Below are positions 1 through 61,873 of a stretch of 64,000 bases of DNA, piece after piece; positions within the stretch are counted from its first letter, which is position 1; each line of letters opens with the position of its first letter. The DNA comes from Tridacna crocea (taxonomy: Eukaryota; Mollusca; Bivalvia; Cardiida; Cardiidae), in the NCBI GenBank assembly GCA_943736015.1, contig OX031073.1:23463210-23527209 (forward strand), given 5' to 3'. Position numbers and translations under genes: made by a program. The notes below the pieces were generated by a model. It was not told the DNA's origin, made no database searches, and was given only the letters and a program-made list of their open reading frames with translations.

Positions 1-210
1 ATTGTACTGTAGTCCAAATTGAAAGCATTATGGCGCAAAAATTGAAAATTGTTTTAGGAAGGGTAGAAAAGATTGTGGAAAAAGGAGAAAAGGAGAAAAT
101 GCTGGTTTTGGGGGCCAACTTTTGCTGGTTACCAGCATTTTCCCCTTTTCCTGCGATGTCTACAATGTTTCAGGGTCGTTAAAAGTCGGGATTGTGTGGA
201 AAAGAGTTAA
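1..210 (-). mobile_element. HP225-A copy, cut by window start
   Basis: The right part is intact to GTCGGGATTGTGTGG and TTAA; the outer arm is missing beyond the window edge. The hairpin carries extra bases at its centre. Confidence 0.75.
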
Positions 211-381
211 CCCTTTCCCAAACAAGCCCGGATTTTTACATGTCTGCAGTAAAAGTCTTTTCTCACAGTGTTTTCTACCTTGTTTGAGAACTCTCTGGCA
301 TTTTCTCCAAGTCTAAAATTGTCGTCTGCATACTCTTTCGGTTTGGAAGAGTCCAAAATTCATTGTTTGGGAAAGGGTTAA
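207..381 (+). mobile_element. HP225-C copy without hairpin
   Basis: Starts TTAACCCTTTCCCAAACAAG and ends GTTTGGGAAAGGGTTAA. The left half of the central palindrome has been lost. It shares its first TTAA with the preceding copy. Confidence 0.75.
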
Positions 382-563
382 CTGGTCAATTGACCTGGTT
401 TCATTTCTAAAGTTGATACTATGTTTTTAGCCACTTCAAAGCTACCTGTATATTGAATTTTGTTCCTTTTGTACCAACTCAAAATGTATGGTTTCATTCA
501 ACCCTTTGCTGGCACAGTCTTGCATGGTCATTTCAATGAAACAGTTCAAATGAGTTCCCACCA

Positions 564-793
564 CTAAGATTTTACTGCAAAGCAGAATTTTAGACCTATC
601 CAAATTGAAAGTATTTGTAGATGATAATTTCATAGTGCCTCAAATGATGCAATATTTCTTTGATAGAGTTGAAAACTTTGAGGGAAAAGGAGAAAATGCT
701 GGTTGCCAGCATTTTCTCCTTTTCCCACAAAATTTTCAAAGGCTTTTTTTCTCGGGGGGCGTAATAAGTTGTCATTGTGTGGTAAAGGGTTAA
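564..793 (-). mobile_element. HP225-A4 copy
   Basis: The hairpin core is present (GCTGGTTGCCAGC). The arm TTTGATAGAGTTGAAAAC marks A4. The right end is GGTAAAGGGTTAA; the left end is eroded. Confidence 0.8.
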
Positions 794-840
794 TAAAGAA
801 CTGATGTTACTTTGGGTTTGATTACAGCCACATGCCCGGG

Positions 841-1075
841 GTCCTGCATGGCTCGGTGGTAAAGTGTGTGACTTGTAACCAGGAGACCTGGGGTTTAAGC
901 CTCACAAAAAGACTAAGTCTTGTTTTTTTTGTGGGAGTGTCCTTGGGCAAGACACTTAAGCGCCCTAGCCTGGTAGTAATGGTGTAGCCCAGGACATGAA
1001 TAAACAAGCTGTGGCCATGATCTGACCACAATAATGTTGAAAGTAGTGTCAAACACCATTCAATGAAATCAACCA
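841..1075 (+). mobile_element. tRNA-derived SINE, type 1
   Basis: The head has an A-box-like TGGCTCGGTGG and a B-box-like GGGTTTAAGCC, followed by a body with GGGCAAGACACTTAAGCGCC. A related copy is at 45939-46085. The 3' end is unclear. Confidence 0.6.
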
Positions 1076-1427
1076 CCACATCTCCACCTCTCATTTCACT
1101 ATTTTCTTTTGTACTTTTGGACTCTAATTGTAACACAGTGTTCTCCCACATTCTGACCTGAGGGATCTTGTGCCTTTGCATTTTCATCTTTTTACTGCAA
1201 CAGTTTTTTTGGGGTCAAAGTTGGCTGCACATTGATTCTCTTTCTGACATATACTTCTATTTTTGATATCTTTCTTCATTCTTATTGTTTTCTTCCATTC
1301 TTGTTTTCCTTCATCCTTATTATTTTCTTTGTATATTGTTGTTATATCTTGGTGGAAAAACAATAAACCAATAATGACCTTTACCTCTCTTAGAATGAAA
1401 GTTTTATTATATCCCTGGAAAAGGAAT

Positions 1428-1945
1428 GTTTTCAGGGGTATACTGGAATCAGCCAGTCCGTCCATGTGTCCGCCCGTCTGTGTGTCCGTCTGTGTACAAA
1501 ATACTAGTAATTTTGTGTCGCGAACTCCTCCTTTAGTTTTCCTTCAATTGTATTGAAACTTTGCACATAGACTGATCATGTATTGAAGATTTGTAAGACA
1601 CAATTTTCAAGTGTCAACTCTTCCTGGTTGAGGAATTATCTCCCCTTGGACTTGACACTTTTTTCTGTCAAAATGCTGGCGGGGGCATTAACCCTTTACC
1701 AAACAAAAAAATTTTAGACTGGTCCAAATCGAAAGCAATTGCAGATGACAAAATAACCACAACTAAAAAATTGAAATTTGTTACCAGCAGAGTAGAAAAC
1801 ATTGTGGGAAAAGGAGAAAATGCTGGTTACCAGCATTTTCTCCTTTTCCCACAATGTTTTCAAAAGGCTTCATTCTCAGGGTCGTTAAAAGTCGGGATTG
1901 TGTGGTAAAGAGTTAAGTCACATTCAATGGCAGCTCTAGTTTAGT
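1428..1945. mobile_element. Interspersed element split by an HP225 insertion
   Basis: Starts around TTCAGGGGTATACTGGAATC and resumes after the HP225 copy with TCACATTCAATGGCAGCTC. A second copy (55064-55185) carries the same joint unbroken around one TTAA at 55155-55158. Family not identified. Confidence 0.65.
1688..1916 (-). mobile_element. HP225-A3 full copy, 229 bp
   Basis: TTAA at both ends and an intact hairpin with T at its centre. It is inserted in the 1428-1945 element, whose unoccupied copy is at 55155. Confidence 0.95.
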
Positions 1946-1993
1946 CTGTTTTCGATGAATATATGATTACGGTTATTTCTTGTCTACTTTCAG

Positions 1994-2032
1994 GTTGTAA
2001 CATCATGTGTTCCACAGATCAATCATGAACTG
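1994..2032 (+). CDS. tns: Tensin candidate microexon (13 codons)
   Basis: A 39-bp phase-0 exon reading VVTSCVPQINHEL, between a pyrimidine-rich acceptor (tctactttcag) and a strong donor (gtaagttt). It is in phase with the next exon about 23 kb downstream, but its sequence is not recognisable as a tensin domain. It could be an alternative or N-terminal exon. RNA evidence would be needed for certainty; the call rests on splice sites and phase. Confidence 0.5.
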
Positions 2033-2066
2033 GTAAGTTTAAAATCTTCCTTTTGTTACATATTCT

Positions 2067-2235
2067 TCAACTCTTTCCGTCACATTCCCGAATTTTAAAG
2101 ACCCTGAGAAAGAAAACTTTTGAAAACATTGTGGGAAAATGCTGGTTACCAGCATTTTCTCCCTTTTCCCACAATGTTTTCAAAAGGCTTCTACCTCAAG
2201 GGCGTTAAAGTCAGGATTGTATGGTAAAGAGTTAA
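2067..2235. mobile_element. HP225-A copy with two left arms (L/L)
   Basis: Both outer arms are of the ACAATCCC type, so the unit is almost a complete inverted repeat with a shortened stem. The 3' end is AAAGAGTTAA. Confidence 0.7.
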
Positions 2236-3140: not shown

Positions 3141-3335
3141 TTATGCTTTACCAAATGACAGTAATTAAGACTTGTCCAAATTGAAAGCATTTGCAGATTG
3201 CCAAACTCATGTAACTCCAAAATTGAAAACTGTTTTGGAAAGGATAGAAATCTGGTTACCAGCATTTCCTCCTTTCCTACAATGATTTTTGTTGCCATGG
3301 ATGTTAAAACTCGGGATTAAATGGTAAATAGTTAA
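3141..3335 (-). mobile_element. HP225-A2 copy with shortened stem
   Basis: The right arm comes first (ACTTGTCCAAATTGAAAGC). The left side of the stem is largely missing. Ends GTAAATAGTTAA. Confidence 0.7.
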
Positions 3336-3487: not shown

Positions 3488-3716
3488 TTAACACTGTACC
3501 AAACAACAGTATTTTAGGCTTGTCCAAATGGAAGGATTTTGCAGATGACAAAATAAAAGTGACTGAAAATTTGAAATTTGTGTTGTGAAGAGTTGAAAAC
3601 ATTGTGGGAAAAGGAGAAAATGCTGGTTACCAGCATTTTCTCCTTTTCCCATAATGTTTTCTAAAGGCTTCTTTCTCAAGGTTGTCAAAAGTAGGGATTG
3701 TGTGGTAATGGGTTAA
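3488..3716 (-). mobile_element. HP225-A1 full copy, 229 bp
   Basis: TTAA on both sides; the right-arm marker is AAAGTGACTGAAAATTTGAA and the end is AAAAGTAGGGATTGTGTGG. Confidence 0.93.
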
Positions 3717-6850: not shown

Positions 6851-7081
6851 TCAACCCTTTTACCAAACAATCTCTGGTTTTTATAACTCTTGAGATAGAA
6901 GCCTTTGGAAAACATTGTGGGAAAAGGAGAAAATACTGGTAAACAGCATTTTCTCCCTTTTTCCACAATGTTTTCTACCTTGCTGGAAACAAATTTCAAT
7001 GTTTGAGTAACGTTTATTTTGTCGTCTGCAAGTGCTTCCAATATTGACCACTCTAAAATTTTGTTGTTTGGTAAAGATTGA
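6851..7081 (+). mobile_element. HP225-A3 copy
   Basis: The left arm has AACAATCTCTGGTTTTTATA and the right arm GCTGGAAACAAATTTCAATG. The terminal TTAAs have decayed to TCAA and TTGA. Confidence 0.85.
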
Positions 7082-7672: not shown

Positions 7673-7898
7673 TTAAACTCATTACCGCATGACAAAATGT
7701 AGGCTTGCCCAAATTGAAAGTATTTGCAGACGACAAAATAAAAGTGACTGAAATTTTGAAATTTGCTTTGCAAAGGGTAGAAAACATTGTGGGAAAAGGA
7801 GAAAATGCTGGATACCAGTATTTTCTCCTTTTCCTACAATGTTTTCTAAAGGCTTCTTTCTCAGGGTCCAAAGTAGGGATTGTGTGGTTATCGGTTAA
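7673..7898 (-). mobile_element. HP225-A1 full copy
   Basis: TTAA to TTAA; stem tip altered to GCTGGATACCAG. It is 3 bp short of the standard length. Confidence 0.92.
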
Positions 7899-9387: not shown

Positions 9388-9594
9388 CTAACCCTTAACC
9401 AAACAATCCCTGAGATAGAAGCCTCTGGAAAACATTGTGGGAAAAGGAGAAAATACTGGTTACCATCATTTTCTCCTTTTCCCAATGTTTTCTACCCTGC
9501 TGGAAACAAGTTTCAGTGTTAGAGTTCCATTTAATTTGTGTGCAAGTGCTTCAATTTGGACATCTAATATTTCCTTGTTTGGTAACTAGTTTAA
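9388..9594 (+). mobile_element. HP225-A3 copy, shortened
   Basis: About 20 bp are missing in the left arm. The stem centre is T, opposite to that expected for this orientation. Ends TTAA, shared with the next copy. Confidence 0.85.
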
Positions 9595-9828
9595 CCCTTT
9601 ACTCCATAGATACTCATTTTTACGCGTTGCTTGTAGGAGTCTTTAGAAAACATTACGGCAGAAGGTGAAATTGCTCGCGAGTCATGACGAGCAATTCCAC
9701 CTTTTGTCGCAATGTTTTCTATGCTATCAAAAGGTGTCATATACACATAAGAAATGGTGTCATCCTTGCTGTTATTTAGGGTCAATTAGAGATACCATAG
9801 AAATACCTTATGGGGTAAAGCCGGTTAA
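9591..9828 (+). mobile_element. HP225-B full copy
   Basis: TTAACCCTTTACTCCATAGA start, a stem built on GGTGAAATTGCTCG, then TTTAGGGTCAATTAGAGATA and GGTTAA. The stem centre has a small insertion. Confidence 0.88.
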
Positions 9829-12621: not shown

Positions 12622-12850
12622 TTAACTCATTACCACACGAGAAAATTTTAGACTTGTCCAAATTGAAAGCATTTGCAGACGAAAAAATAAAGGTGACTGA
12701 AAAATAGAAATTTGTTCTGAAAAAGGTAGAAAACACTGTGGGAAAAGGAGAAAATGCTGGTTACCAGCATTTTCTCCTTTTCCCACAGTGTTTTCAAAAG
12801 GCTTCTTTCTCAGGGGCGTCAAAAGTAGGGATTGAGTGGTAATGGGTTAA
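12622..12850 (-). mobile_element. HP225-A1 full copy, 229 bp
   Basis: TTAA at both ends. The stem is AAAACACTGTGGG paired with CCCACAGTGTTTT, a matched two-sided variant. Confidence 0.95.
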
Positions 12851-14333: not shown

Positions 14334-14565
14334 TTAACCCATTACCACACAATCCCTACTTTTGACGACCCTGAGAAAGAAGCCTGTAGAAAACATTGTG
14401 GGGGGAAAAGGAGAAAATTTAGATAACCAGCATTTTTTCCTTTTCCCACAATATTTTCTACACTTCCCAGAACAAATTTCAGTTGTTGATTAATATTTAT
14501 GTTGTCGTCTGCAAATGCTTTCAGTTTGGACTAGTCCAAATTTTTGTCATTTGGTAAAGAGTTAA
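14334..14565 (+). mobile_element. HP225-A1/A2 copy
   Basis: TTAA to TTAA. The left arm is A1 (CCCTACTTTTGACG) and the right arm closer to A2 (GTTGATTAATATTTATG). The stem centre is altered. Confidence 0.88.
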
Positions 14566-15270: not shown

Positions 15271-15499
15271 TTAACCCATTACCAAACAATCCCTACTTTT
15301 GACGCCCTTGAGAAAGAAAGCTTTAGAAAGCATTGTTGGCAAAGGAGAAAATGCTGGTAACCAGCATTTTCTCCTTTTCCCACAATGCTTTCTACCACTC
15401 ACAAAACAAATTTCAAATTTTCAGTCTCTTTTATTTTGTTGCCTGCAAATGCTTTCAATTTGGGCAAGCCTAAAATATTGTCGTTTGGTAATGAGTTAA
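15271..15499 (+). mobile_element. HP225-A1 full copy, 229 bp
   Basis: TTAACCCATTACCAAACAAT start and GTCGTTTGGTAATGAGTTAA end, with an intact stem. Confidence 0.95.
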
Positions 15500-15869: not shown

Positions 15870-16159
15870 TTAACTCTTTAGTTACCAAATGACAAATTTT
15901 TGGACTGGTCCAAATTGAAAGCACTTGCAGACAAAAAAATAAATGTAGCCAAAAATTGAAATTTTTTCCCTGGAGCAGGGTAAGAAAACATTGTGGGAAA
16001 AGGAGAAAATGCTGGTAACCAGCATTTTCTCCTTTTCCCAAAATGCTTTCTGCTCCCTTCAATACAAATTTAAGATTTTCAGTCACTTCTATTTTGACGT
16101 CTGCAAATGCTTTCAATATGGGCCAGTCTACAATTTTGTCTTTTGGTTAGAAGAGTTAA
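15870..16159. mobile_element. HP225-A copy with two right arms (R/R), 290 bp
   Basis: Starts TTAACTCTTTAGTTACCAAA and ends GGTTAGAAGAGTTAA. Both arms carry the GGACTGGTCCAAATTGAAAG type in inverse order, so the whole unit is a long imperfect palindrome. Confidence 0.88.
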
Positions 16160-17721: not shown

Positions 17722-17854
17722 TTAACCTTTTACCATGTGAACCTTCACTATAGTTACCCTAAAAAAGAAAGCTTTTGAAAACATTGTGTAAAAAGGAGAA
17801 AATGCTGGTAACCAGCATTTTCTCCTTTTCACACAATTGTTTTCAACCCTTTAA
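17722..17854 (+). mobile_element. HP225-A left part, truncated
   Basis: Left arm and stem only (…ACACAATTGTTTTCAACCC), then the next copy's TTAA. Confidence 0.7.
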
Positions 17855-18079
17855 CCCATTACCACTCAATCCCTACTTTTGACGCCCCTGAGAAAGAAGC
17901 CTTTTGAAAACACTGTGGGAAAAGGAGAAAATGCTGGTAACCAGCATTTTCTCCTTTTCCCACAGTGTTTTCTACCCTTTCCAGAACAAATTTCTATTTT
18001 TCAGTCACCTTTATTTTGTCGTCTGCAAATGCTTTCAATTTGGACCAGTCCAAAATTATCTCGTGTGGTAATGAGTTAA
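17851..18079 (+). mobile_element. HP225-A1 full copy, reference example of the family
   Basis: A non-autonomous DNA element with no coding gene of its own. Order: TTAA; terminus CCCATTACCACTCAATCCC; left arm with GAGAAAGAAGCC; 65-bp palindrome (17907-17971) with 32-bp arms AAAACACTGTGGGAAAAGG... and one unpaired centre base in GGT-A-ACC; right arm with TTTTCAGTCACC and GTCGTCTGCAAATGCTTTC; terminus GTGTGGTAATGAG; TTAA. The outer 13 bp are inverted repeats. TTAA targets and CCY ends are known from piggyBac transposons, so mobilisation by such a transposase is inferred. A denatured or transcribed copy would fold into a very stable hairpin. Confidence 0.97.
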
Positions 18080-18336: not shown

Positions 18337-18475
18337 AACCAGCATTTTCTCCTTTTCTCACAATGTTTTCCATACTTCCCAAAACAGATTTCAATTTTTT
18401 TATTTACATTCATTTTGTAGTCTACAAGTACTTTGAATTCAGAACAGTCTAAGATTTTGTTATGTAAAGAGTTAA
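18337..18475 (+). mobile_element. HP225-A2 right half
   Basis: Begins at the stem centre (GTAACCAGC) and runs to AAAGAGTTAA. Confidence 0.75.
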
Positions 18476-18700
18476 CCCATTACCACACAATCCCTACTTT
18501 TGACGCCCCTGAGAAAGAAGCCTTTTGAAAACACTATGGGAAAAGGAGAAAATGCTGGTAATCAGCATTTTCTACTTTTCCCATAGTGTTTTCTACCCTT
18601 CATTGAACAAATTTCTATTTTTCAGTCACCTTTATTTTGTCGTCTGCAAATGCTTTCAATTTGGACCAGTCTGAAATTTTCTTGTGTGGTGAAGGGTTCA
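18472..18700 (+). mobile_element. HP225-A1 full copy, 229 bp
   Basis: The stem carries a matched double change: ACACTATGGG on the left and CCCATAGTGT on the right. The right end has decayed to TTCA. Confidence 0.93.
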
Positions 18701-21842: not shown

Positions 21843-22071
21843 TTAACCCTTTACTCCATAGATACTCATTTCTTCACATTGCTTGTAGGAGCCTTTGAAA
21901 AACATTGTGGCAAAAGGTGAAATTGCTCGTGACGAGCAATTTCACCTTTTGCCACAATGTTTTCTACACTATCAAAAGGTGTCATATACACATAAGAAAC
22001 AGCTTCATCCTTGCTGTTATTTAGAGTCAGTTTGAGATACCTTAGAAATGCCTTATGAGGTAAAGGGTTAA
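21843..22071 (+). mobile_element. HP225-B full copy, 229 bp
   Basis: TTAA both ends; the stem is AAACATTGTGGCAAAAGGTG against CACCTTTTGCCACAATG, tip TTGCTCGTGACGAGCAA. Confidence 0.96.
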
Positions 22072-22175: not shown

Positions 22176-22303
22176 CAGAACCCCTCACCAAATAATACAG
22201 ACTTTAAACAACCGTAAGAAAGGAAGCTTTTGAAAACATTTTGGGAAATGCTTATGACCAGTATTTTCTCTTCTTTTCCCAATGTTTTCAAAAAACTTCT
22301 TAA
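22176..22303 (+). mobile_element. HP225-A left part, truncated
   Basis: CCCCTCACCAAATAATAC left arm and a decayed stem; stops at the TTAA of the next copy. Confidence 0.65.
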
Positions 22304-22528
22304 CCCTTCACCACACAATCCCGACTTTTCATGACCCTGAGAAAGAAGCCTTCTGAAAACATTGAGGGAAAAGAAGAGAATGCTGGTAACTAGCATTCTC
22401 TCCTTTTCCCACAATGTTTTCTTCCCTTCCCAAAGGAAATTTTAATATTAAAATCTCTTTTATTTAGTCGTCTGCAAATGCTTTCAATTTGGACCAGTCT
22501 AAAATTTTGTCGTTGGGTACAGAGTTAA
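22300..22528 (+). mobile_element. HP225-A2 full copy, 229 bp
   Basis: TTAA both ends; stem slightly mismatched (GAGGGAAAAG). Confidence 0.92.
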
Positions 22529-37099: not shown

Positions 37100-37146
37100 A
37101 TTTAATTTAGACTGGCTCAAAATGTGTCTGTTTAGTAAAGAGTTAA
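37100..37146 (+). mobile_element. HP225-A right terminus remnant
   Basis: TTTAGACTGGCTCAAAATGT to GTAAAGAGTTAA only. Confidence 0.55.
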
Positions 37147-39122: not shown

Positions 39123-39342
39123 TTAACTCTTTAACAAACGACAAAATTTTAGACTGTTCCAAGTTGAAAGGATTTGCAGAGAAGAAAATTAACAGGACGT
39201 AAAAATCGAAATTTGTTCTGGAAAGGGAAGAAAACATTGTGGGAAAAGGAGAAAATGCTGGTCACCAGCATTTTCTCCTTTTCCCACAATGTTTTCAAAA
39301 GGTTTGGCTGTAAAAACCAGGGATTGTTTGGGAAAGGGTTAA
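39123..39342 (-). mobile_element. HP225-A3 copy
   Basis: TTAACTCTTTAACAAACGAC to GGGAAAGGGTTAA; the left arm is shortened by about 10 bp. Confidence 0.9.
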
Positions 39343-40505: not shown

Positions 40506-40735
40506 TAAACCTTTACCACAGTCCTGACTTTTAAGAAGCTCCGAGAAAGATTTTAAGCCTTTGAAAACATTGTGGGAAAAGGAGAAAATAATGGTAACCA
40601 GTATTTTCTCCTCTCCCACAATGTTTTCTACTATTTCCAAATCAAATTTCAATTTTTGATTCACTTTTATTTTGTTGTCTGCAAATGCTTTCAATTTGGA
40701 CTGGTCCACTATTTTGGCATTTGGTAAAGAGTTAA
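40505..40735 (+). mobile_element. HP225-A2 full copy
   Basis: TTAAACCTTTACCACAGTCC to GGTAAAGAGTTAA; extra bases in the left arm. Confidence 0.9.
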
Positions 40736-41744: not shown

Positions 41745-41968
41745 ATAACTCTCTACCAAATGACAAAATTTCTAGACTTGTCCAAATCATTTGCAGATGA
41801 CAAAATAATAGTGACTGAAAGTTTGAAATTCGTTTTGAGGAGATTAGAAACATTGTGGGAAAAGGAGAAAATGCTGGTTACCAGCATTTTCTCTTTTTCC
41901 CACAATGTTTTCTAAAGGCATCTTTCTCAGGGTCATCAAAAAGTAGGGATTGTGTGGAAATGGGTTAA
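41745..41968 (-). mobile_element. HP225-A1 copy
   Basis: ATAACTCTCTACCAAATGAC to GGAAATGGGTTAA; a small gap in the right arm. Confidence 0.9.
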
Positions 41969-41998: not shown

Positions 41999-42228
41999 AT
42001 AACTCTTCACTGCACAATACAGACATTTTACGACCCATGGAAAGAAGCCTTTTGAAATATTGTGGGGAAAAGGGGAAAATAGTGGTAACCAGCTTTTTCT
42101 CCTTTTCCCACAATGTGTACTGCCCTATCAAAGAAAAATTTGCAGCATTTAAACCACTTTGAAATCGTCGTCTGCAAATGCTTTTAATTTGGACAAGGCT
42201 AAAATTTTATTGGCTGGTAAAGTGTTCA
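41999..42228 (+). mobile_element. HP225-A4 full copy
   Basis: ATAACTCTTCACTGCACAAT to GTAAAGTGTTCA. Confidence 0.88.
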
Positions 42229-42260: not shown

Positions 42261-42489
42261 TTAACCCATTACCACTCAATCCCTACTTTTGACGCCCCAG
42301 AGAAAGAAGCCTTTTGAAAACACTGTGGGAAAAGGAGAAAATGCTGGTAACCAGCATTTTCTCCTTTTCCCACAATGTTTTCTACTCTTCACAAAACAAA
42401 TTTCAAATTTTCATTCACTTTTATTTTGTCGTCTGCAAATGCTTTCTATTTGGACAAGCCTAAAATTTTGTCGTTTGGTAATGAGTTAA
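42261..42489 (+). mobile_element. HP225-A1 full copy, 229 bp
   Basis: TTAA both ends, intact stem. The second TTAA starts the next copy. Confidence 0.96.
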
Positions 42490-42695
42490 CCCTTATCCCC
42501 ATAAGACATTTCTATGGTATCTCTTATTGACCCTAAATAACAGCAAGGAGGAAGCTTATGTGTATATGAAACCTTTTGATAGCATAGAAGACATTGTGGC
42601 AAAAGGTGAAATTGCTCGTCACCTTTTGCCACAACGTTTTCAAAAGGCTCCTACAAGCAATGCTTAGAAATGAGTATCTGTGGAGTAAGGGTTAA
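42486..42695 (-). mobile_element. HP225-B copy, short stem
   Basis: The tip and part of the right stem are missing (TTGCTCGTCACC). Confidence 0.9.
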
Positions 42696-42845
42696 GATGA
42701 AAGAGAAATAGCTGTCATCAACTTGTGTAATTAGTTTAGTGAAATAACTAAATGTACCCTCAATCTGATTTCAATCCCAGATGTTTTTACAGAGATTACA
42801 AATCGCAGATTACAAGTAAACAAATTTATGTACTACTATGAAATG

Positions 42846-43892: not shown

Positions 43893-43952
43893 TGTTGGAA
43901 TTCACCTTTTAATGTTGGAATTCACCTTTTAATGTTGGAATTCACCTTTTAA
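43889..43952 (+). repeat. 21-bp tandem repeat, three units
   Basis: TTAATGTTGGAATTCACCTT three times in perfect register, ending at the next HP225 TTAA. Confidence 0.9.
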
Positions 43953-44173
43953 CCCTTTACCACACAATGCAAACTTTTAATTACCCTGGGAAAGGAGCCG
44001 TTTGAAAATATTTTTAGGAAAAAGAGAAAACGCTGATTACCAGCATTTTCCCTTTTTCCCACATAATTTTCTACCGTATCAAAGAAAAATTGCACCATTC
44101 AAGCCACATTAAAATGATCTGCAATTGCTTTCACTTTGCACAGCTAAAATTTTATTGTGTGGTAAAGGGTTAA
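43949..44173 (+). mobile_element. HP225-A4 full copy
   Basis: TTAA both ends; stem with several mismatches; centre T. Confidence 0.9.
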
Positions 44174-44577: not shown

Positions 44578-45035
44578 TTAACCCATTACCACCCAATCCC
44601 TACTTTTGACGACCCTGACAAAGAAGCCTCAACTCTTTACCGCACAATCCCGATTTTCACTGACCCTGAGAAAGAAGCCTTTTGAAAATATTGTGGAAAA
44701 AAGGAGAAAATGCTGGTAACCAGCATTTTCTCCTTTTCCCACAATGTTTTCTACCCTGCTGGAAACAAATTTCAGTTATTGTTGAGTTACATTAATTTTG
44801 TCATCTGCAAATGCTTTCAAATTGGACCGGACTGAAATTTTGTCATTTGGTAAAGATTCAGGAAAACATCATGGGAATACGGGGAAATGCTGATAACCAG
44901 TATTTTCTCCTTTTCCTGCAATGTTTTCTACTCTTCACAGAACAAATTTCAAATTTTCAGTCACTTTTATTTTGTCGTCTGCAAATGCATTCAGATTGGA
45001 CCAGTCTTTAATTTTGTCATTTGGTAATGAGTTAA
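44578..45035 (+). mobile_element. HP225-A1 copy split by a nested HP225
   Basis: The left piece ends AAAGAAGCC; the right piece resumes GGAAAACATCATGGG and runs through the stem to GGTAATGAGTTAA. Confidence 0.88.
44629..44860 (+). mobile_element. HP225-A2/A3 full copy, nested
   Basis: TCAACTCTTTACCGCACAAT to GGTAAAGATTCA; the right arm has GCTGGAAACAAATTTCAG (A3), the left arm is A2. Confidence 0.88.
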
Positions 45036-45390: not shown

Positions 45391-45598
45391 TTAATCCGTT
45401 ACCACACTGCAAAATTTTAGATCTATTCAAATTTCAAAGTGGCTCAGATGGTGCAAATTTGCTTTGGTACTGGGTAGAAAACTTTGTGGGAAAAGGAGAA
45501 AATGCTGGTTACCAGCATTTTCTCCTTTTCCCACTAAGTTTTCAAAAGGTTTCTTCCCAAGGGGCACTAAAAGTCATCATTGTGGGGTAAAGGGTGAA
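45391..45598 (-). mobile_element. HP225-A4 copy
   Basis: TTAATCCGTTACCACACTGC to AAAGGGTGAA; begins 36 bp after the C2-core exon. Confidence 0.9.
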
Positions 45599-45713
45599 CC
45601 CATTACACCCAGTCCCTAAACAAATTTCAAATTTTCAGTCAAATTTATTTTGTTGTCTGCAAATGCTTTCGATTTGGACAAGTCTGAAATATTGTCATTT
45701 GGTAATGAGTTAA
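45595..45713 (+). mobile_element. HP225-A1 copy lacking the whole hairpin
   Basis: CCCATTACACCCAGTCCC joins straight to AAACAAATTTCAAATTTTCA, so the stem is cleanly absent. Confidence 0.85.
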
Positions 45714-45938
45714 CCCTTTCCCAAACGACAAACTTTGGACTCTTCCAAATCAAAAGAGTTTCCAGACGACAATTTCAGATTTGGAGAAAATGCCAGAAAG
45801 TTCTCAAAAAGGGTAGAAAACACTGTGGGAAAAGGAGAAATTGCTCGTTATGAGCAATTTCTTCTTTTCCCACAAGTGTTTTCAAAAGACTGTTCGTGCA
45901 GACACGCAAAAACCAGGGCTTGTTTGGGAAAGGGTTAA
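45710..45938 (-). mobile_element. HP225-C full copy, 229 bp
   Basis: TTAACCCTTTCCCAAACGAC to GGGAAAGGGTTAA; tip TTGCTCGTTATGAGCAA. Confidence 0.95.
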
Positions 45939-46162: not shown

Positions 46163-46391
46163 TTAACTCTTTACCAACTGACAAAGTTATGGACTTGTCC
46201 AAATTGAAAGCATTTGCAGACAACAATATAAATGTTACTCAGAAATTGAAATTTGTTTTGGGAAGGGTAGAAAACATTGTGGGAAAAGGAGAAAATGCTG
46301 GTTACCAGCATTTCCTCCTTTTCTTACAATGTTTTCAAAAGGCTTTTTCCTCAGAGTCATTAAAAGTCAAGTTTGTGTTGTAAAGAGTCAA
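46163..46391 (-). mobile_element. HP225-A2 full copy, 229 bp
   Basis: TTAACTCTTTACCAACTGAC to AAAGAGTCAA. Confidence 0.94.
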
Positions 46392-46399: not shown

Positions 46400-46566
46400 A
46401 ATTTTAGACTAGTCCAAATTGAGAGCGTTCTTTTGATTAAAGGATTCAAGAAAGCCACTTAAAAGCCAGTTCTTAAACTTTTACTAAACAACAAAGTTTT
46501 AGACAATCATGTCCAGCTTTGTCCAGAGTAAAGGCACTTGCAGACAACAAAATATTTTGTTACTTA
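46400..46566 (-). mobile_element. HP225-A right-arm fragments
   Basis: TTTTAGACTAGTCCAAATTG at 46400 and CTAAACAACAAAGTTTTAGA with GGCACTTGCAGACAACAAAA near 46490-46550. Confidence 0.5.
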
Positions 46567-46793
46567 ACCCTTTACTCCATAGATACTCATTTCTACGCAT
46601 TGCTTGTAGGAGCCTTTAGAAAACATTGTGGCAAAAGATGAAATTGCTTGTGATGAGCAATTTCACCTTTTTGTCACAATGTTTTTTATGCTATCAAAAG
46701 GTGTCATATACACATAAGAAACAGCTTCATCCTTGCTGTTATTTAGGGTCAATTAGAGATACCATAGAAATGCCTTATGGGGTAAAGGGTTAA
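46564..46793 (+). mobile_element. HP225-B full copy
   Basis: TTAA both ends; complete stem with one extra T. Confidence 0.95.
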
Positions 46794-47250: not shown

Positions 47251-47480
47251 TTGAACTGTTTACTAAACAACAAAATTTTGGACTAGACCAAATTGAAAGC
47301 ATTAGCAGACGACAAAATAAAGGTAACTCGAAAATTTAAATTTGTGTCCAGCAGAGTAGAAAACATTGTGGGATAAGGAGAAAGTGTTGGTTACCAGCAT
47401 TTTCTCCTTTTCCCTCAATGTTTTCAAAAAGCTCCTATCTCAGGGTCGTAAAAACCAGGGATTGTTTGGTAAAGGGTAAA
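47251..47480 (-). mobile_element. HP225-A3 full copy
   Basis: TTGAACTGTTTACTAAACAA to TTTGGTAAAGGGTAAA; starts 126 bp after the exon at 47057. Confidence 0.92.
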
Positions 47481-47526: not shown

Positions 47527-47808
47527 TTAACTCATTACCAAACGACAAAATTTCAGGTTTGTCCTAATCGAAAGTATTTGCAGATGGCAAAATAAAAGTG
47601 ACTGAAAATTTCAAATTTTCTTTTTTCTGAAGGGTAGAAAACATTGTGGGAAAAGGAGAAAATGCTGGTAACCAGCATTTTCTCCTTTTCCCACAATGTT
47701 TTCTACCCTGCTGGACACAAATTTTAACTTTGGAGTTTTCCCACAATATTTTCGAAAAGCTTCTTTCTCGGGGGCGTCAAAAATAGGGATTTTGTGGTAA
47801 TGGGTTAA
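47527..47808 (-). mobile_element. HP225 mosaic copy (A1 arms with A3 segment)
   Basis: A1 outer arms, but the stem is followed by CTACCCTGCTGGACACAAAT (A3 right arm) before a second partial stem and the A1 left arm; 282 bp. Confidence 0.88.
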
Positions 47809-47918: not shown

Positions 47919-48373
47919 TAAACCCTTCACAACACAGCAAAATTTAAGACCCAACCAAATTGAAAGCATTTTACTGATGACAATTTCTTAGTGGCTCAAA
48001 TGTAGCAACTTTCCTTTGATAGGGTAGAAAACTTTGTGGGAAAAGGAGAAAATGCTGGTTTCCAGCATTTCCTCCGTTTCCCACAGTGTTTTCAAAAGGC
48101 CTCTTCCACAGGGTCATTAACCCTTTACTCCATAGATACTCATTTCTACACATTGCTTGTAGGAGCCTTTAGAAACCATTGTGGCAAAAGGTGAAATTGC
48201 TCGTGACGAGCAATTTCACCTTTTGCCACAATGTTTTCTATGCTATCAAAAGGTGTCATATACACATAAGAAACTGCTTCATCCTTGCTGTTATTTAGGG
48301 TCAGTTAGAGATACCATAGAAATGCATTATGGGGTAAAGGGTTAAAAGGCATCATTGTATGGTATGGGGTTAA
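47919..48373 (-). mobile_element. HP225-A4 copy split by a nested HP225-B
   Basis: Runs to CACAGGGTCATTAA, then resumes AAGGCATCATTGTATGG to GGGGTTAA. Confidence 0.9.
48117..48345 (+). mobile_element. HP225-B full copy, nested, 229 bp
   Basis: TTAA both ends; intact stem. Confidence 0.96.
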
Positions 48374-48697: not shown

Positions 48698-48931
48698 TTA
48701 ACCCTTTACCAAACAATCCCGGGTTTTTACGACCCCGAGATGGAAGCCTTTTGAAAACATTGCAGGAAAAGAATAGGAGAAAATGCTGGTAACCAGCACT
48801 TTCTTCTTTTCCCACAATGTTTTTAACTGTGCTGGAAACAAATTCCAGTTTTTGAGTTGCGTTTATTTTGTTGTCTGAAAGTGCTTTCAATTGGAACCAG
48901 TCTAAAATTTTGTTGTTTGGTAAAGAGTTAA
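48698..48931 (+). mobile_element. HP225-A3 full copy
   Basis: TTAA both ends; a 6-bp slip in the left stem (GGAAAAGAATAGGAG). Confidence 0.92.
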
Positions 48932-49238: not shown

Positions 49239-49464
49239 TTAACTCTTATAATACCACACAATCCTGACCTTTAACAACCCTGAGAAAAAAGCCTGCAGAA
49301 AACATTGTGGGGAAAGGAGAAAATGCTGGTAACCAGCATTTTCTCCTTTTTCTACAATATTTTCTACCCTATCAAAGTCATAAATCATCATATTAACGAG
49401 ATTTTATTTGCAGGTGCTTTGAGTTTGGTCCAGTCCGAAAATTTGTTGTTTGGCAAAGAGTTAA
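49239..49464 (+). mobile_element. HP225-A2/A4 copy
   Basis: TTAACTCTTATAATACCACA start; the right arm begins CTATCAAAGTCATAAATC; ends TTAA shared with the next copy. Confidence 0.9.
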
Positions 49465-49682
49465 CCCTTTACTCCATAGATACTCATTTCTACGCATTGC
49501 TTGTAGGAGCCTTTGGAAAACATTGTGGCAAAAGGTGAAATTGCTCATGACGAGCAATTTCACCTTTTGTCACAATGTTTTCTATGCTATAAAAAGGTGT
49601 CATATACAGATAAGAAACGGTTTCATCCTTGTTGTTATTAAGGGTCAATTAGAGATACCATAGAAATGCCTTATGGGGTTAA
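49461..49682 (+). mobile_element. HP225-B copy
   Basis: TTAACCCTTTACTCCATAGA to CTTATGGGGTTAA; the last few terminal bases are missing. Ends 57 bp before a tensin exon. Confidence 0.93.
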
Positions 49683-49739
49683 ACTGATGTAGCTGGCATT
49701 TGTAGATTGGACTGTAAATAACCAAGTGTTTGACAACAG

Positions 49740-51009: not shown

Positions 51010-51011
51010 TA

Positions 51012-51496: not shown

Positions 51497-51954
51497 TTAA
51501 CCCATTACCATACAATCCCTACTTTTGACACCCCTGAGAAAGTAGCCTTTAGAAAAAACTGTGGGAAAAGGAGAAAATGCTGGTAAAACCAGCATTTTCT
51601 CCTTTTCCCACAATGCTTTCTACCCTTAAGTCTTTACCACACGAAAATTATTAGACCGGTCCAAATTGAAAGCATTTGCAGACTACAAATTAAATGTAAC
51701 TGAAAAAATGAAATTTGGTTTTGGAAGGGTAGAAAACATTGTGGGAAAAGGAGAAAATGCTAGTGACCAGCATTTTCTCCTTTTCCCACAATGTTTTCAA
51801 AAGGCTTCTTTCTCCTGGGTCGTTAAAAGTCGGGATTTTGTGGTAAAGGGTTAACAAAACAAATTTCAAATTTTCAGTCACTTTTATTTTGTCTTCTGCA
51901 AATGCTTTCAATTTGGCTTGAAGTCTAAAATTCTGTCGCCTGGTTATGAGCTAA
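51497..51954 (+). mobile_element. HP225-A1 copy split by a nested HP225-A2
   Basis: Left arm and stem to TTTCTACCCTTAA; resumes CAAAACAAATTTCAAATTTT and ends CTGGTTATGAGCTAA. Confidence 0.92.
51626..51854 (-). mobile_element. HP225-A2 full copy, nested, 229 bp
   Basis: TTAA both ends; inserted just after the host hairpin. Confidence 0.95.
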
Positions 51955-52531: not shown

Positions 52532-52682
52532 GTTAAAAGCATGTAAAAAATTTCAGACTTGTCCAGATTGAAAACATTCGCAGACAATGATTAGAATATC
52601 GGCTCGAATGATTTCATTTGTTTCTGAAAGAGTAGGAAGCATTGTGGGAAAAGGAAGAAGGAAAGGAAGATGATTCCTTTAA
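52532..52682 (-). mobile_element. HP225-like fragment, duplicated unit 1
   Basis: TTAAAAGCATGTAAAAAATT, CAGACTTGTCCAGATTGAAA, stem left arm GCATTGTGGGAAAAGG, then GAAGATGATTCCTTTAA. Confidence 0.7.
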
Positions 52683-52907
52683 CCATTTACCACACAATCC
52701 CTACCTTTGACGACCCTGAGAAAGAAGCCTTTAGAAAACATTGTGGGAAAAGAAGACAATGCTGGTTACCAGCATTGTCTCCTCTTCCCACAATGTTTTC
52801 TGCCATACTGGAAACAAATTGCAATTTCTGAGGTACGTTTATTTTGTCGTCTGCAATTGATTCCAATTTGGACCAGTCTAAAATTTTGTTGTTTGGTAAA
52901 GAGTTAA
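52679..52907 (+). mobile_element. HP225-A1/A3 full copy, 229 bp
   Basis: TTAA both ends; left arm A1, right arm A3 (TGGAAACAAATTGCAATTTC). The stem has matched changes GACAATGCTGG / CCAGCATTGTC. The centre base is T despite plus arms. Confidence 0.93.
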
Positions 52908-53054: not shown

Positions 53055-53279
53055 CTTATTACCAAACGACAAAACTTTTGGTTTGTCCAAATCGAAAGTA
53101 TTTGCAGATGACAAAATAAAAGTAACTGAAAATTTGAAATTTTTTTTATGAATGGTAGAAAACATTGTGGGAAAAGGAGAAAATGCTGGTAACCAGCATT
53201 TTCTCCTTTTCCCACAATGTTTTCTAAATGCTTCTTTCTGAGGGTCATCAAAAGTCGGGATTGTGTGGTAATGGGTTAC
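53051..53279 (-). mobile_element. HP225-A1 full copy, 229 bp
   Basis: TTAACTTATTACCAAACGAC to GGTAATGGGTTAC; the centre base is A despite minus arms. Confidence 0.93.
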
Positions 53280-55185: not shown

Positions 55186-55414
55186 ATAATTCATTACCAA
55201 ATGACAGTATTTTAGACTTTTCCAAATCTTGAGCATTTGCAGACGACAAAATATAAATGACTAAAATTTTAAAATTTGTTTTATGAAGGGTAGAAAACAT
55301 TGTGGGAAAAGGAGAAAATGTTGGTGACCAGCATTTTCTCCTTTTCCCACAATGTTTTCAAATGGCTTCTTTTCCAGGAGTGTCAAAAGTAGGGATTGTG
55401 TGGTAATGGGTTTA
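55186..55414 (-). mobile_element. HP225-A1 full copy
   Basis: TTCATTACCAAATGACAGTA to GGTAATGGGTTTA; terminal targets decayed. Confidence 0.9.
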
Positions 55415-56430: not shown

Positions 56431-56663
56431 TTAGCCCTTTACCAATCCATCCCTGATTTTTACAACCCAGATGAAGAAGACTTCTGAAAGCATCAATTGT
56501 GGGAAAAGGAGAAAATGCTGGTAACCAGCATTTTCTCCTTTTCCTACAATGTTTTCTACCCTTCACAAATCAAATTTCAAATTTTCAGTTACTTTTATTT
56601 TGTTGTCTGCAAATGCTTTTGATTTGGACAAACCTAAAATTTCGTCGTTTGGCAACGAGTTAA
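56431..56663 (+). mobile_element. HP225-A1/A3 full copy
   Basis: TTAGCCCTTTACCAATCCAT to GGCAACGAGTTAA; the left arm is A3-like, the right arm A1. Confidence 0.9.
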
Positions 56664-56796: not shown

Positions 56797-56990
56797 GCTG
56801 TGGCCAGTGCAGCTATCCATGATTTCCTGGAGTTCCTATAACTAGTACTTTGCACAATATTCTTCCCAAGGTACTTGCTACTTTCCCACATAACCATTGA
56901 TAAAGCTATGATTAGCTGACAATAAATCCCCTCACAATGACTGCACTCAAACCTTGGCAAGAAATTGGCAAAGCTGGGGATGTGTTTAAG
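56797..56990 (-). mobile_element. SINE, CAACAGGATTCATTCC type, minus strand
   Basis: GCCAGTGCAGCTATCCATGA and TTTCCTGGAGTTCC read as the complement of the body at 43080-43120; CTTGGCAAGAAATTGGCAAA near the head side. Confidence 0.6.
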
Positions 56991-57200
56991 ACATTGCCAC
57001 ACAGTCCCTACTTCTGATGACCCTGAGAAAGAAGCCTTTAGAAAACATTGTGGAAAAAGGAGAAAATGCTGGTAACCAGCATTTTCTCCTTTCCCCACAA
57101 TGTTTTCTACCCTTCACAAAACAAATTTCAAATTTTCAGTTGTCTGCAAATGCTGTCAATTTGGACAAACCTAAAATTCTGTCATTTGGTAATGATTTAA
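56985..57200 (+). mobile_element. HP225-A1 copy
   Basis: TTAA both ends; about 14 bp missing in the right arm. Confidence 0.92.
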
Positions 57201-57309: not shown

Positions 57310-57565
57310 AATGCAACAAAAACTGTACCCTGACGACAAAAATTTAGACTATCCAATAGAAAGCATTTGCAGATGCCTAATTGAATTTTGCACAAAACAT
57401 GGGATTCATATCTGAAATGATAGAAAACATTGTAGGAAAAGGAGAAAATGCTGGTAAGCAGCATTTTCTCCTTTTCCCACAATGTTTTAAGAACCCATTT
57501 ATGGTCGTCTGCAAATGCCTTGGATTTGGGCAAACCTAAAATTTTGGCATTTGGTAATGAGTTAA
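57310..57565. mobile_element. HP225-A copy with two right arms (R/R)
   Basis: AGACTATCCAATAGAAAGCA on one side and GCCTTGGATTTGGGCAAACC on the other are both right-arm type. Intact stem; ends GAGTTAA. Confidence 0.8.
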
Positions 57566-58593: not shown

Positions 58594-58825
58594 TTAACTG
58601 TTTACCACACGAGAAAATTTTAGACTGGTCCAAATAGAAAGCATTTGCAGACAACAAAATAAAGGTGACTGAAACATTAAATTTTGGTTTGGGAAGGGTT
58701 GAAAACACTCTGGGAAAAAGGAGAAAATGATGTTTACCAGCATTTTCTCCTTTTCCCACAGTGTTTTCAAAAGGCGTCTTTCTCAACATCGTTAAAAGTC
58801 GGGATTGTGTGGTAAAGTCAGTTAA
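58594..58825 (-). mobile_element. HP225-A2 full copy, first of a three-copy chain
   Basis: TTAACTGTTTACCACACGAG to GTCAGTTAA. Confidence 0.93.
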
Positions 58826-59051
58826 CTCATTACCAAACAACAAAATTTTAGGTTTGTCCAAATCGAAAGCATTTGCAAACGACAAAATAAAAGTGACTGA
58901 ATATTTGAAAATTGTTATGTGAAGGGTAGAAAACATTGTGGGAAAAGGAGAAAATGCTGGTAACCAGCATTTTCTCCTTTTCATACAATGTTTTCAAAAA
59001 GGCTTCTTTCTCAGGGTCGTCAAAAGTAGGGATTGTGTGGTAATGGGTTAA
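58822..59051 (-). mobile_element. HP225-A1 full copy, second of chain
   Basis: TTAACTCATTACCAAACAAC to AATGGGTTAA; centre base A despite minus arms. Confidence 0.94.
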
Positions 59052-59275
59052 CTCTCTACCAAACGACAAAATTGAAGACCAGTCCAAATAGAAAGCATTT
59101 GCAGACGACAATGTGCGTATGGTTCAAAAGTTGAAATTGGTCTTGTGAAGGGTAGAAAACATTGTGGGAAAAGGAGAAAATGCTGATAATCAGCATTTTC
59201 CCCTTTTCCCATAATGTTTTCAAGAGCTTCTTTCCTGGGGTCGGTAAAAGTCGGGATTGTGTGGTAAAGGCTTTA
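59048..59275 (-). mobile_element. HP225-A2 full copy, third of chain
   Basis: TTAACTCTCTACCAAACGAC to GTAAAGGCTTTA; stem right arm CCCATAATG without matching change on the left. Confidence 0.92.
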
Positions 59276-59720: not shown

Positions 59721-60121
59721 TTAATGTCGACTTTTGACAACTCCTGTGAAAGAAAGCTATTGAAAACATTGTGGGAAAAGGAGAAAATGCTGGTAACCAG
59801 CATTTTCTCCCTTTTCCACAATGTTTTCTACCCTTCCCAATTTGATTTTCATTTTTTATCCACTTTCATTTCGTTGTCTGCAAATGCTTTGAATTTGGAC
59901 CAGTCTAAAATTTTGTCATTTTGACGACTCCTGTGAAAGAAAGCTATTGAAAACATTGTGGGAAAAGGAGAAAATGCTGGTAACCAGCATTTTCTCCCTT
60001 TCCCACAATGTTTTCTACCCTTCCCGATTTGATTTTCATTTTTGATCCACATTCATTTCGTTGTCTGCAAATGCTTTGAATTTGGACCAGTCTAAAATTT
60101 TGTCGTTTGGTAAAGGCTTAA
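59721..60121 (+). mobile_element. HP225-A2 copy with the body duplicated in tandem
   Basis: One TTAA at each end but two complete bodies in direct order, units starting at 59734 and 59921 (187-bp period), nearly identical. Confidence 0.92.
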
Positions 60122-60227
60122 GAATGAAAGTACCAAATAAGCCCAACACCCTATTTCCTGTCTATAAAGACAGTGACACATGCAAGGTCAATGTTGCCTT
60201 TCTCCTGAGTGTCCTAGCAAAGAGGAG

Positions 60228-60280
60228 AGTAAGATCAAAGATCAGATAAACATATTTTGTGCAGTCTGTTCCTTGGTTTA
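60228..60280. mobile_element. GATCAGACTGCA element, decayed
   Basis: AAGATCAAAGATCAGATAAA and GTGCAGTCTGTTCCTTGG. Confidence 0.4.
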
Positions 60281-60486
60281 CATAGGCTACATAGGCAAAA
60301 GGTAAACAATAGAAGGAAGGCAATAACAGTATATCCTGCTAATTAGTGTGAGCCAGGCATTAATTATATAGATATCAGATGGAAGGCAAGAACACCATAC
60401 CTGCTGTTGGTCATTAGCAACAAACCTTAGAGCTCCCTTTTGAACACTTTTCCGGACAATCTGGTGTTCTAGCTCTCCAGAAAGGA

Positions 60487-60675
60487 GGCCGACTGTTGTA
60501 AACATTGTGGGGGAATAAGGACAATAATGCTGGTCAACAGCATTTTATCCTTTTCCCACAATGTTTTCTACCCTTCACAGAACAAATTTCAAGTTTTTAG
60601 TGGCTTTTATTTTGCTGTCTGCAAATGCTTTCAATGTGGACAGGCCTAAAATATAGTCATTTGGTATTGAGTTAA
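60487..60675 (+). mobile_element. HP225-A1 copy, 5' truncated
   Basis: Starts around GGCCGACTGTTGTAAACATT; the stem has the tip GGTCAACAGC; ends GTATTGAGTTAA. Confidence 0.82.
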
Positions 60676-61230
60676 TAATACATCCATCTTTTCCCACTGT
60701 AAGTTCACTGAACTGATGTAAAAAGATATCAGTGAGTAATTATACTAGTTTAATCCGCTGCTGTATGTGTCTTCAAATACTGTGAAGAATGTAGATTCCC
60801 TGTTAACATTCATAAGTGATGTAGTTACAACAAGGGTACTGTTCTGTTGTGCCCTCCCTTGCTCTGATTCTCTTCCAGAATAAGGTTCTGCTTGCCCAGG
60901 TAATGTAAAAGTGTTGTACCATACCTGGAATGAAGGTGGCATGTAGTGTTTTTTTGCAGTGATAAGAGCAAGTAATTTATTTTACCTGGATGATGAGTGG
61001 CATTCTATGAGTAGACTCCTGAGATATTTTGGGATGGGTACCGTTTAACTCTGCCCTGTAGTTGGTCTGTAAACTGGAACCAGTCTTGTGTCTCATGAAC
61101 CGCAAACTGTGCTTGTGAGCAAAGTCAGGCTTACCTTCCCAAGAGGTAACCCTGTTCCACATAGTTCCCAGTTTTATGAAACATTCTGAAAATATTGTTT
61201 TCTACCCTTTTAGAGTCAATTGAGCCATGC
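60676..61230. other. Stretch without recognised features
   Basis: A short HP225-like scrap (ATATTGTTTTCTACCC) at about 61190; nothing else seen. Confidence 0.4.
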
Positions 61231-61458
61231 TTAACTCATTACCACACAATCCCTACTTTGATGCTTCTGAGAAACAAGCCTTTAGAAAACATTGTGGGAA
61301 AAGGAGAAAATGCTGGTAACCAGCATTTTCTCCTTTTCCCACAATGTTTTCTACCCTTCACAAAACAATTTTCAAATTTTTAGTCACTTTTATTTTGTCG
61401 TCTGCAAATGCTTTCAATTTGGACAAGTCTAAAATTTGGTAATCTGGTAATGAGTTCA
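61231..61458 (+). mobile_element. HP225-A1 full copy
   Basis: TTAACTCATTACCACACAAT to GGTAATGAGTTCA; intact stem. Confidence 0.94.
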
Positions 61459-61555
61459 CTCTCTACCTTCCTCACGACAAATTTAGAGACTGGTCCAAAT
61501 TGAAAGCGTTTGCAGACAACAAAATAAATGTGACTGAAAAATCGAAATTTGACCA
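61455..61555 (-). mobile_element. HP225-A right arm only
   Basis: TTCACTCTCTACC...GAGACTGGTCCAAATTGAAA to GACTGAAAAATCGAAATTTG; stops before the stem. Confidence 0.7.
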
Positions 61556-61612
61556 AAAAATGCTTTGATATTACAAAATTTGACTTCTGAATAACTATAT
61601 TCCTCTTCATAC

Positions 61613-61672
61613 TACCAAACAACAAAATCTTATAGTAATACAAACTCAAAGCTGCTGCAGATGATAAATTAA
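61613..61672 (-). mobile_element. HP225-A right-arm scrap
   Basis: CTACCAAACAACAAAATCTT and GCTGCAGATGATAAATTAA. Confidence 0.5.
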
Positions 61673-61873
61673 CCCATTATCAGACAAAGCCTACTTTTTA
61701 CAACCCTGGGAAGGAAGCCTTTAGAAAACATTCTGAGAAATGGTAACCTTTCCTACAATGTTTTCTACTCTATCAAAGAAGAATTACTCCATTTGGGTCA
61801 CAATGAAATTGATGTCTGTAAAATGCTTTCAATTGGGACAAGGCTAAAATTTTGTCATCTGGTAAAGGGTTAA
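61669..61873 (+). mobile_element. HP225-A4 copy, hairpin mostly gone
   Basis: TTAACCCATTATCAGACAAA to GGTAAAGGGTTAA; the stem is reduced to TTCTGAGAAATGGTAACC. Confidence 0.82.

Follow-up and report, generated by a model that had tools for sequence, protein, structure and literature searches.

The DNA examined here is a 64,000-nucleotide stretch of the genome of the giant clam Tridacna crocea (C18:23463210-23527209, hereafter the window), about 40% of which consists of copies of HP225, a 229-bp element with a long central palindrome. HP225 is probably a non-autonomous miniature inverted-repeat transposable element (MITE) of the piggyBac superfamily, cross-mobilized by a resident clade of piggyBac transposons (EL and EA), and the window appears to be a dense patch within a genome-wide spread; on the strength of sequence comparisons, we place this reading at roughly three in four. 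The main surprise is the spread of the family across the genome, rather than its density in the window. The earlier description of this stretch as rich in one hairpin family (the original prediction) is confirmed in substance. The genome comprises 1,048,827,098 bases in 31 contigs (labeled C1 to C31), of which 18 large contigs hold 99.96%; loci fetched from it are labeled L0xx.

Profile searches of the 64 kb recovered a single HP225 element family, with 128 palindromes, 114 L arms, and 97 R arms, and the HP225-rich stretch extends over positions 1..61873. The consensus is 229 bp long, including one TTAA at each end (TTAA-CTCTTTACC...GGTAAAGGG-TTAA), and consists of an L arm of 107 bp, a palindrome of 67 bp, and an R arm of 55 bp. 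The palindrome is symmetric at 66 of its 67 positions, the exception being the centre base. The consensus is non-coding, its longest open stretch from stop to stop being 74 amino acids. HP225 covers 36.4% of the window with three part models and 40.1% (25,674/64,000) after the addition of a whole-element model at E<=0.01 (39.2% at E<=1e-5), in agreement with the predicted 125 or so copies over about 40% of 62 kb. One dinucleotide shuffle of the window and of the 18 genome samples described below (119 kb together) gave 0 matches. Under strict bounds 55 window copies are full length, and the 40 copies with TTAA near both ends are small and uniform (200-235 bp). Among the 128 palindromes, 77 have the standard two arms, 3 score as L-P-L (L arm on either side of the palindrome), and 1 as R-P-R; 19 have no recognizable arm, and the remainder are one-armed or ambiguous.

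Of 141 near-full-length copies drawn from the window (65 copies) and the fetched loci, 63 have exact TTAA at each end. In a search for empty sites, the 80-bp flanks of the 78 copies with TTAA near both ends were joined; 13 of these had an uninterrupted paralogue, and five of the 13 alignments were read. The copy at window positions 1688-1916 (full-length element 1691..1915, + strand) has an empty counterpart on C5 with a single TTAA (90% over 111 bp), and the copy at L013 6941-7167 has one in L022 (89% over 150 bp). Both sites are outside HP225 sequence; the other three are within or adjoining other HP225 copies. The single TTAA at the two pre-insertion sites indicates that the target-site duplication of HP225 is TTAA, which bears out the ends originally proposed. 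TTAA is also the target of piggyBac and piggyBat. HP225 resembles piggyBac-superfamily MITEs in this duplication, in its size and non-coding nature, and in a terminus common with an autonomous element. Under the CC[C/T]T definition of the tips (PMC2872659), the R tip CCCTTTACC fits and the L tip CTCTTTACC differs in base 2; EL has CTCTTT at both tips.

Within the element, conservation is highest in the palindrome. Across the 141 copies its mean divergence is 8.3%, whereas the two inner arms diverge by 20.3% and 20.7% (Mann-Whitney p=3e-15, palindrome versus inner arms) and the terminal inverted repeats (TIRs) by 17.9% and 15.0%. The original prediction had long perfect stems kept in many copies; the conservation stands, whereas the stems are mostly imperfect. 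The covariation analysis was restricted to palindromes free of gaps (53 in the window and 110 from the wider set of 141). Just 7 of the 53 window 67-mers are without a broken pair (37 have two or fewer), and in the wider set 10 of 110 stems are perfect, with a mean of 3.86 broken pairs of 33 per copy compared with 4.72 after permutation. That the palindrome acts as a cis-acting site for transposition is plausible, at somewhat less than even odds.

Alternatively, symmetry could have been kept by correction of one palindrome arm from the other, through template switching or hairpin repair in replication, instead of by selection. The reduced number of broken pairs fits this account, as does the co-change of partner columns, which among the 110 ungapped palindromes is 2.95 times that expected under independence. 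However, non-partner columns also reach 1.58, a 1.6-fold excess that comes from unequal copy age. At the pair at position 28, the one pair for which changes were counted genome-wide, 231,766 sites are unchanged, 3,336 are changed on the left only, 3,286 on the right only, and 175 on both sides, where 47 two-sided changes would be expected. Despite this two-sided excess, most changes at this pair affect one arm (6,622 to 175, or about 38 to 1), which argues against strong arm-from-arm repair and makes correction after insertion a rare event there. Compensatory pairs account for 35 of 36 two-sided changes in the window (8.4 expected) and 55 of 82 in the wider set (27.8 expected), the window excess being inflated by the inclusion, among its 53 palindromes, of at least three from a second family described below.

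The arm isoforms also fit palindrome-mediated switching. An L-P-L 77-mer with up to three mismatches has 4,545 + 4,567 matches in the genome, and an L-P-R 79-mer has 111,383. Since the 77-mer is nearly palindromic, most of its sites should be counted on both strands, leaving about 4,500 sites, and the resulting share of about 4% L-P-L is an upper estimate because some counts could be altered L-P-R copies. In the window, L-P-L isoforms are located at 15882..16148 and 57329..57562 and an R-P-R isoform at 2070..2234; at 47530..47807 (+) an exact L-P-L 77-mer (47632-47708) is followed by an R arm. The L-P-L and R-P-R isoforms suggest occasional exchange at the palindrome. Correction alone leaves unexplained both the 2.5-fold higher conservation of the palindrome and its persistent placement 55 and 107 bp inward of the tips. 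We therefore rejected it as the main keeper of the stems, on the position-28 counts, and consider it an unlikely, minor rival.

A second family of elements provides a further view of the palindrome. Of 284 palindromes in the window and fetched loci, 46 lack HP225 arms, and 16 of these make one cluster, which we term family 2 (HP2); one of the 16 (window 35268) overlaps its neighbour at 35144. The family 2 consensus is 229 bp long with the same 55/67/107 layout as HP225, and its tips and the bases adjoining the palindrome resemble those of HP225. The inner arms of the two families agree near chance level (8/27, p=0.45; 28/79, p=0.065), while their palindromes agree at 57 of 67 positions. All four differences in the left arm of the palindrome are mirrored by complementary ones in the right arm (hypergeometric p=1.2e-4); beyond these pairs, the two palindromes differ at the centre base and by one unpaired change. 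Further, 7 of the 110 HP225-armed copies have two of the four paired changes, one of these with a third as well, and such intermediate palindromes are as expected for stepwise paired change. One of the window's full-length copies, at 22728..22951 (-), has this intermediate form, with two of the four changes. The paired changes and the common layout, despite unrelated inner arms, indicate that symmetry and spacing have outlasted the inner arms.

HP225 is abundant throughout the genome. The exact 25-bp core of the palindrome occurs at 231,766 sites (116,011 and 115,755 per strand), with 0 sites for the reversed control. To estimate coverage, one sample was taken from each of the 18 chromosomes (55 kb in total), at arbitrary positions picked before the sequence was seen. 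HP225 covers 19.7% of these samples at E<=0.01 (bootstrap 12-29%), and their 50 palindromes scale to about 0.95 million in the genome (0.60-1.34 million); at E<=1e-5 the coverage is 18.9% with 42 palindromes. The genome share is a rough estimate, since the density of exact cores in the samples (127 per Mb, from 7 matches) is below that of the genome (221 per Mb). Twenty loci centred on transposases, with 12.5% coverage, were left out of this estimate; their copies enter the 141-copy set. Viral contigs were searched for a 29-bp core, without a match.

Given this spread, the window could still be a special local burst or a hotspot of insertion. It contains 39 exact 25-bp cores where 14.1 are expected from the genome mean (2.76-fold), and 28 matches, at three mismatches or fewer, to a 34-bp segment of the L arm, a 2.3-fold excess over the density of the 199,561 genome sites. 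Its coverage of 40% also exceeds the approximately 20% of the genome, and its 24 reverse-strand cores (15 are forward) exceed the maximum of 17 forward cores in any 64-kb window sliding along 1.15 Mb of C1. That comparison is based on the forward strand and the first 100 forward core sites listed; these windows average 5.6 cores, and 3.9% of 1,090 reach 15, the forward count of the window itself. HP225-holding units are tandemly duplicated at 59732-60108 (period 187 bp), 35765-36262 (261 bp), and 30831-31072 (121 bp), so some copies are not independent insertions. Against a hotspot, the excess is only 2.3- to 2.8-fold on a genome-wide family, and coverage of single samples already ranges from 0 to 59%. 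Nine pairs of abutting tips were found in the window; by eye, and with no fitted model, they show no clear excess over random choice among 482 TTAA sites, 79 of which are tips of full copies, so that no preference for inserting at HP225 ends is apparent. We consider a special hotspot improbable. The local density, which had been thought unusual, is indeed 2.3 to 2.8 times the genome mean, but it belongs to a family that makes up about 20% of the genome.

Candidates for the mobilizing transposase were sought outside the window. Of 196 first-look candidates genome-wide, 116 were scored, and none of the 118 scored DDE_Tnp_1_7 matches is located in the window, consistent with the predicted lack of a transposase there. 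Twenty transposase loci were fetched with their flanks, several of which have other piggyBac TIRs. The element EL, on C7, is 6,376 bp long and has an open DDE_Tnp_1_7 frame and TIRs matching at 18 of 18 positions, counting TTAA (TTAACTCTTTCCCACACA). At one end it carries direct subterminal units at 35-bp spacing (L020 681-813), three alike and a fourth weaker, of which EA has a diverged version. EA, on C15 (L049, C15:28711023-28718224), is 7,202 bp long and is 99.90% identical over 7,204 bp to a copy on C5 (from L021 2124). Five copies of EA have open frames and 100% rounded protein identity; EL is 80% identical to EA, has an open frame, and was seen as one copy. The EA and EL proteins match Pfam DDE_Tnp_1_7 with E=1.8e-88 and 1.1e-83, respectively, and among structures in the PDB the EA transposase matches piggyBat (E=1.9e-39) and 6x67 (E=2.5e-36). 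Its motifs VDEAMIPF, VYFDNFFTG, and GGVDLHD align with piggyBat, and we take their conserved D residues to be catalytic. The 5' exon of the EL/EA transposase is a guess. With a DDE_Tnp_1_7 transposase, TIRs, and TTAA flanks, EL and EA are piggyBac transposons. Clusters with many decayed matches to piggyBac transposases, spanning 30-130 kb, are also present in this genome (C13:4481398-4613002, C8:56710742-56757774, and C8:50405490-50437038).

The terminal 38 bp of EL, comprising the TIR and the start of the first subterminal unit, recur at the R end of HP225. They match the HP225 consensus at 34 of 38 positions and individual R ends at a median of 30 of 38 over the 141 copies, with 38 of 38 in two copies. 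With up to three mismatches, this end is found at 11,052 genome sites including EL (0 for the reversed control), and all 5 of its sites in the window fall at HP225 R ends; the full-length copy at 26850..27073 (-) has an R end within two mismatches of it. Of 451 candidates for the EL end, 40 were scored. These comprise 28 short matches (38-39 bp), eight of which were fetched and all proved to be full-length HP225 with the likeness stopping near base 38, and 12 others, all upstream of a transposase match in the same orientation and within 9.3 kb. HP225 copies are also found inside the 7.2-kb EA, which is 99.9% identical between two chromosomes, so these MITEs travel as cargo of their probable mobilizer.

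We consider it most likely that HP225 has been cross-mobilized by the EL/EA clade, with the transposase acting in trans. The resident clade would supply a DDE_Tnp_1_7 transposase that recognizes the common short TIR and the subterminal motif at the 55-bp end, and copies would be inserted into TTAA with duplication of that site. Amplification in this way could have produced 0.6-1.3 million copies, or about one fifth of the genome. The palindrome, at its fixed 55 and 107 bp from the tips, would be a cis site needed for mobilization; plausibly, the transposase binds there, and this one internal site serves the two ends.

Several observations weigh against this scheme. The L end of HP225 has no match to the ends of EL or EA beyond the TIR (against their opposite ends it scores 19 and 17 of 38), and of the other ends sought in three further relatives, one was located and does not match HP225. 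No element carrying both HP225 ends and a transposase was found. EA, which has near-identical copies, fits the HP225 R end less well (28/38), and the better-fitting EL was seen as one copy; the two 38/38 copies are the top matches in an extremely numerous family. Nested or decayed HP225-like copies aside, neither EL nor EA was found to contain the palindrome. Finally, the copies on which palindrome conservation was measured were collected with a profile spanning the whole element, a choice that may bias the set towards the palindrome, and part of the contrast comes from subfamilies with differing arms. The proposed piggyBac mobilizer and full-length element with a common terminal 15-20 bp are thus supported at one end, by a DDE_Tnp_1_7 element and over 38 bp, while the other end has only the TIR in common. 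A cross-mobilized MITE need not share both ends with its helper, but with the L end shared in the TIR alone HP225 cannot be called a simple deletion product of either EL or EA, and origin as a deletion derivative of either was rejected. To look for a longer HP225 parent, we clustered 46 arm ends lacking a palindrome; by our reading, the only consistent non-HP225 group was the EA/EL R end. An origin of the palindrome from fused subterminal repeats of an autonomous element was likewise sought in EL and EA and set aside, the nearest likeness beyond nested or decayed HP225-like copies being a 30-nt half-likeness in EL (77%, L020 1478-1507).

The missing L-end match leaves room for another TTAA transposase, from Kolobok or a different piggyBac clade, to have done most of the mobilizing, in which case the 38-bp likeness to EL would be a common relic. 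TTAA duplication is a trait of Kolobok as well, and at least four further piggyBac TIR types occur among the 20 loci (TTAACCCTTTATATAC, TTAACCCTAGTCATGC, TTAACCCTTTCAG, and TTAACCCATTTATGCC; a fifth pairing, in L011, is doubtful). However, none of these four continues like HP225 when compared by eye, the EL likeness is aligned exactly at the tip, and frames of the EL/EA clade are open in several copies. On a search that covered DDE_Tnp_1_7 transposases, we regard a different mobilizer as rather improbable. A role of the hairpin as RNA, such as a small-RNA precursor or another transcript function, instead of in transposition is very unlikely, because the stable fold of one HP225 copy (-80.7 kcal/mol, z=-8.8 against dinucleotide shuffles) is expected of any long palindrome, and no Rfam family reached its gathering score in the window.

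The ends of piggyBac offer a parallel for transposition through a palindrome. According to the available part of one study, they contain a palindrome whose position relative to the tips is asymmetric, and the transposase dimer binds palindromes through its cysteine-rich domains (PMC11707139). HP225 resembles the piggyBac and piggyBat ends there in transposase superfamily and in asymmetric placement (55 and 107 bp), but those elements have a 19-bp palindrome copy at each end (PMC11707139), whereas HP225 has one 67-bp palindrome between its ends, for which binding is putative. By analogy, one common palindrome may serve both HP225 ends. In its fullest form, the proposal would be that the palindrome is a symmetric docking module for a transposase dimer, serving both ends at 55 and 107 bp, evolving by paired changes, common to families with unrelated inner arms, and enabling a single 229-bp element to expand to about one million copies, or one fifth of an animal genome. 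Taken as a whole we hold this to be possible but doubtful.

Among known elements, the closest likeness is to CMITE, piggyBac-related MITEs of Acropora corals (Wang et al. 2010, PMC2872659). As far as the consulted portion of that paper extends, CMITE and HP225 have in common the TTAA duplication, a CCCTTT-type tip (in HP225 at the R end), tandem arrays, and an internal region more conserved than the TIRs (between families in CMITE; 8.3% versus 15-18% divergence in HP225), and one CMITE family resembles a resident piggyBac only at and next to the TIRs (PMC2872659). CMITE differs in its size of about 100 bp and an estimated 1,600 or so copies in A. millepora, compared with 229 bp and hundreds of thousands for HP225. 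Its 60-bp conserved centre has no likeness to HP225 (p=0.72 and 0.33 by shuffling), and the same portion describes no palindrome with paired changes (PMC2872659). Wheat Thalos (PMC6200218) and rice MITEs (PMC12550479) are, in the passages available, also non-coding and spread by a transposase in trans. However, the largest of the wheat families described, Thalos, numbers 42,321 insertions in the draft bread-wheat genome (PMC6200218), compared with 231,766 exact cores for HP225, and all rice MITEs together make up 6.04% of that genome (PMC12550479), compared with about 20% of 1.05 Gb for HP225 alone.

If the estimate holds, HP225 is far above the MITE families in these papers. Human Alu has about one million copies, and one non-autonomous DNA element would rival this number in a genome one third the size. 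The presence of an open-frame transposon with one common terminus, together with its near-identical relative, makes the question of how a MITE outgrows its helper directly testable. Further, the combination of paired changes with a constant spacing in both families would provide a concrete hypothesis for the role of internal MITE sequence; for CMITE, the cause of internal conservation was left open in the part of the report at hand (PMC2872659).

The repeat content reported for T. crocea is compatible with an abundant family of this kind. In the accessible text, 34.9% of the assembly is annotated as 'DNA, unknown', with 2,578,864 elements (PMC10858879), a class in which, going by this description, an HP225-like family might appear (see also the bivalve survey PMC10294476). 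If giant-clam genomes carry HP225, the family would account for part of this large unknown DNA fraction. HP225 is absent from the titles and abstract openings of the literature searched, a search that left subscription journals mostly outside its coverage and compared no repeat library. The assembly of T. derasa, as given in the partial text, has 1,060.2 Mb, 18 chromosomes, and a 24.95-kb mitochondrion (PMC11490831). In the present genome, C31 (29,009 bases) is a large mitochondrial contig in which COX1 reads with invertebrate code 5.

The remaining full-length HP225 copies are distributed along the window on both strands. Those on the + strand are at 3491..3715, 7677..7897, 12625..12849, 24033..24257, 26138..26361, 28450..28674, 31367..31591, 32911..33141, 35384..35607, 36869..37093, 38599..38819, 39126..39341, 41748..41967, 45713..45937, 46166..46388, 47255..47477, 51631..51853 (nested in another HP225), 53055..53278, and 55191..55412. 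Those on the - strand are at 6856..7077, 14335..14562, 15272..15496, 17852..18076, 18473..18697, 22301..22525, 25447..25671, 26543..26766, 27914..28138, 29398..29622, 30419..30643, 32658..32881, 33702..33926, 35793..36018 (within the 261-bp tandem duplication), 37144..37358, 38055..38279, 40507..40732, 42000..42225, 42262..42486, 43950..44170, 44631..44856, 48699..48928, 52680..52904, 56433..56660, 60443..60672, and 61232..61455. Shortened copies that retain both ends are located at 3146..3333 (+), 9389..9589 (-), 45396..45595 (+), 56989..57195 (-), and 61670..61870 (-). Three copies are arranged head-to-tail at 58594..59272 (+), with a single TTAA between those at 58825-59050 and 59051-59272, and the 187-bp unit duplicated in tandem at 59732..60108 (-; 96% matches) has an HP225 core in each repeat.

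Family 2 is represented in the window by a 229-bp member with its short arm first at 48117..48345 (+), its bounds taken from the palindrome position and layout, and by another at 49461..49689 (+), with bounds from the layout. Members with approximate bounds are at 46564..46792 (+), 21843..22071 (+), 9591..9826 (+), 35037..35265 (-), and, shortened, 42480..42696 (-); a partial palindrome at 27645..27683 clusters with the family. Among the other repeats, positions 836-1080 resemble by eye a tRNA-derived short interspersed element, with no second copy in the window and fetched sequence. Tandem arrays that by eye are unlike HP225 are present at 53868-54571 (166-bp units), 55802-56079 (28-bp units), and 23601-23827 (44-bp units).

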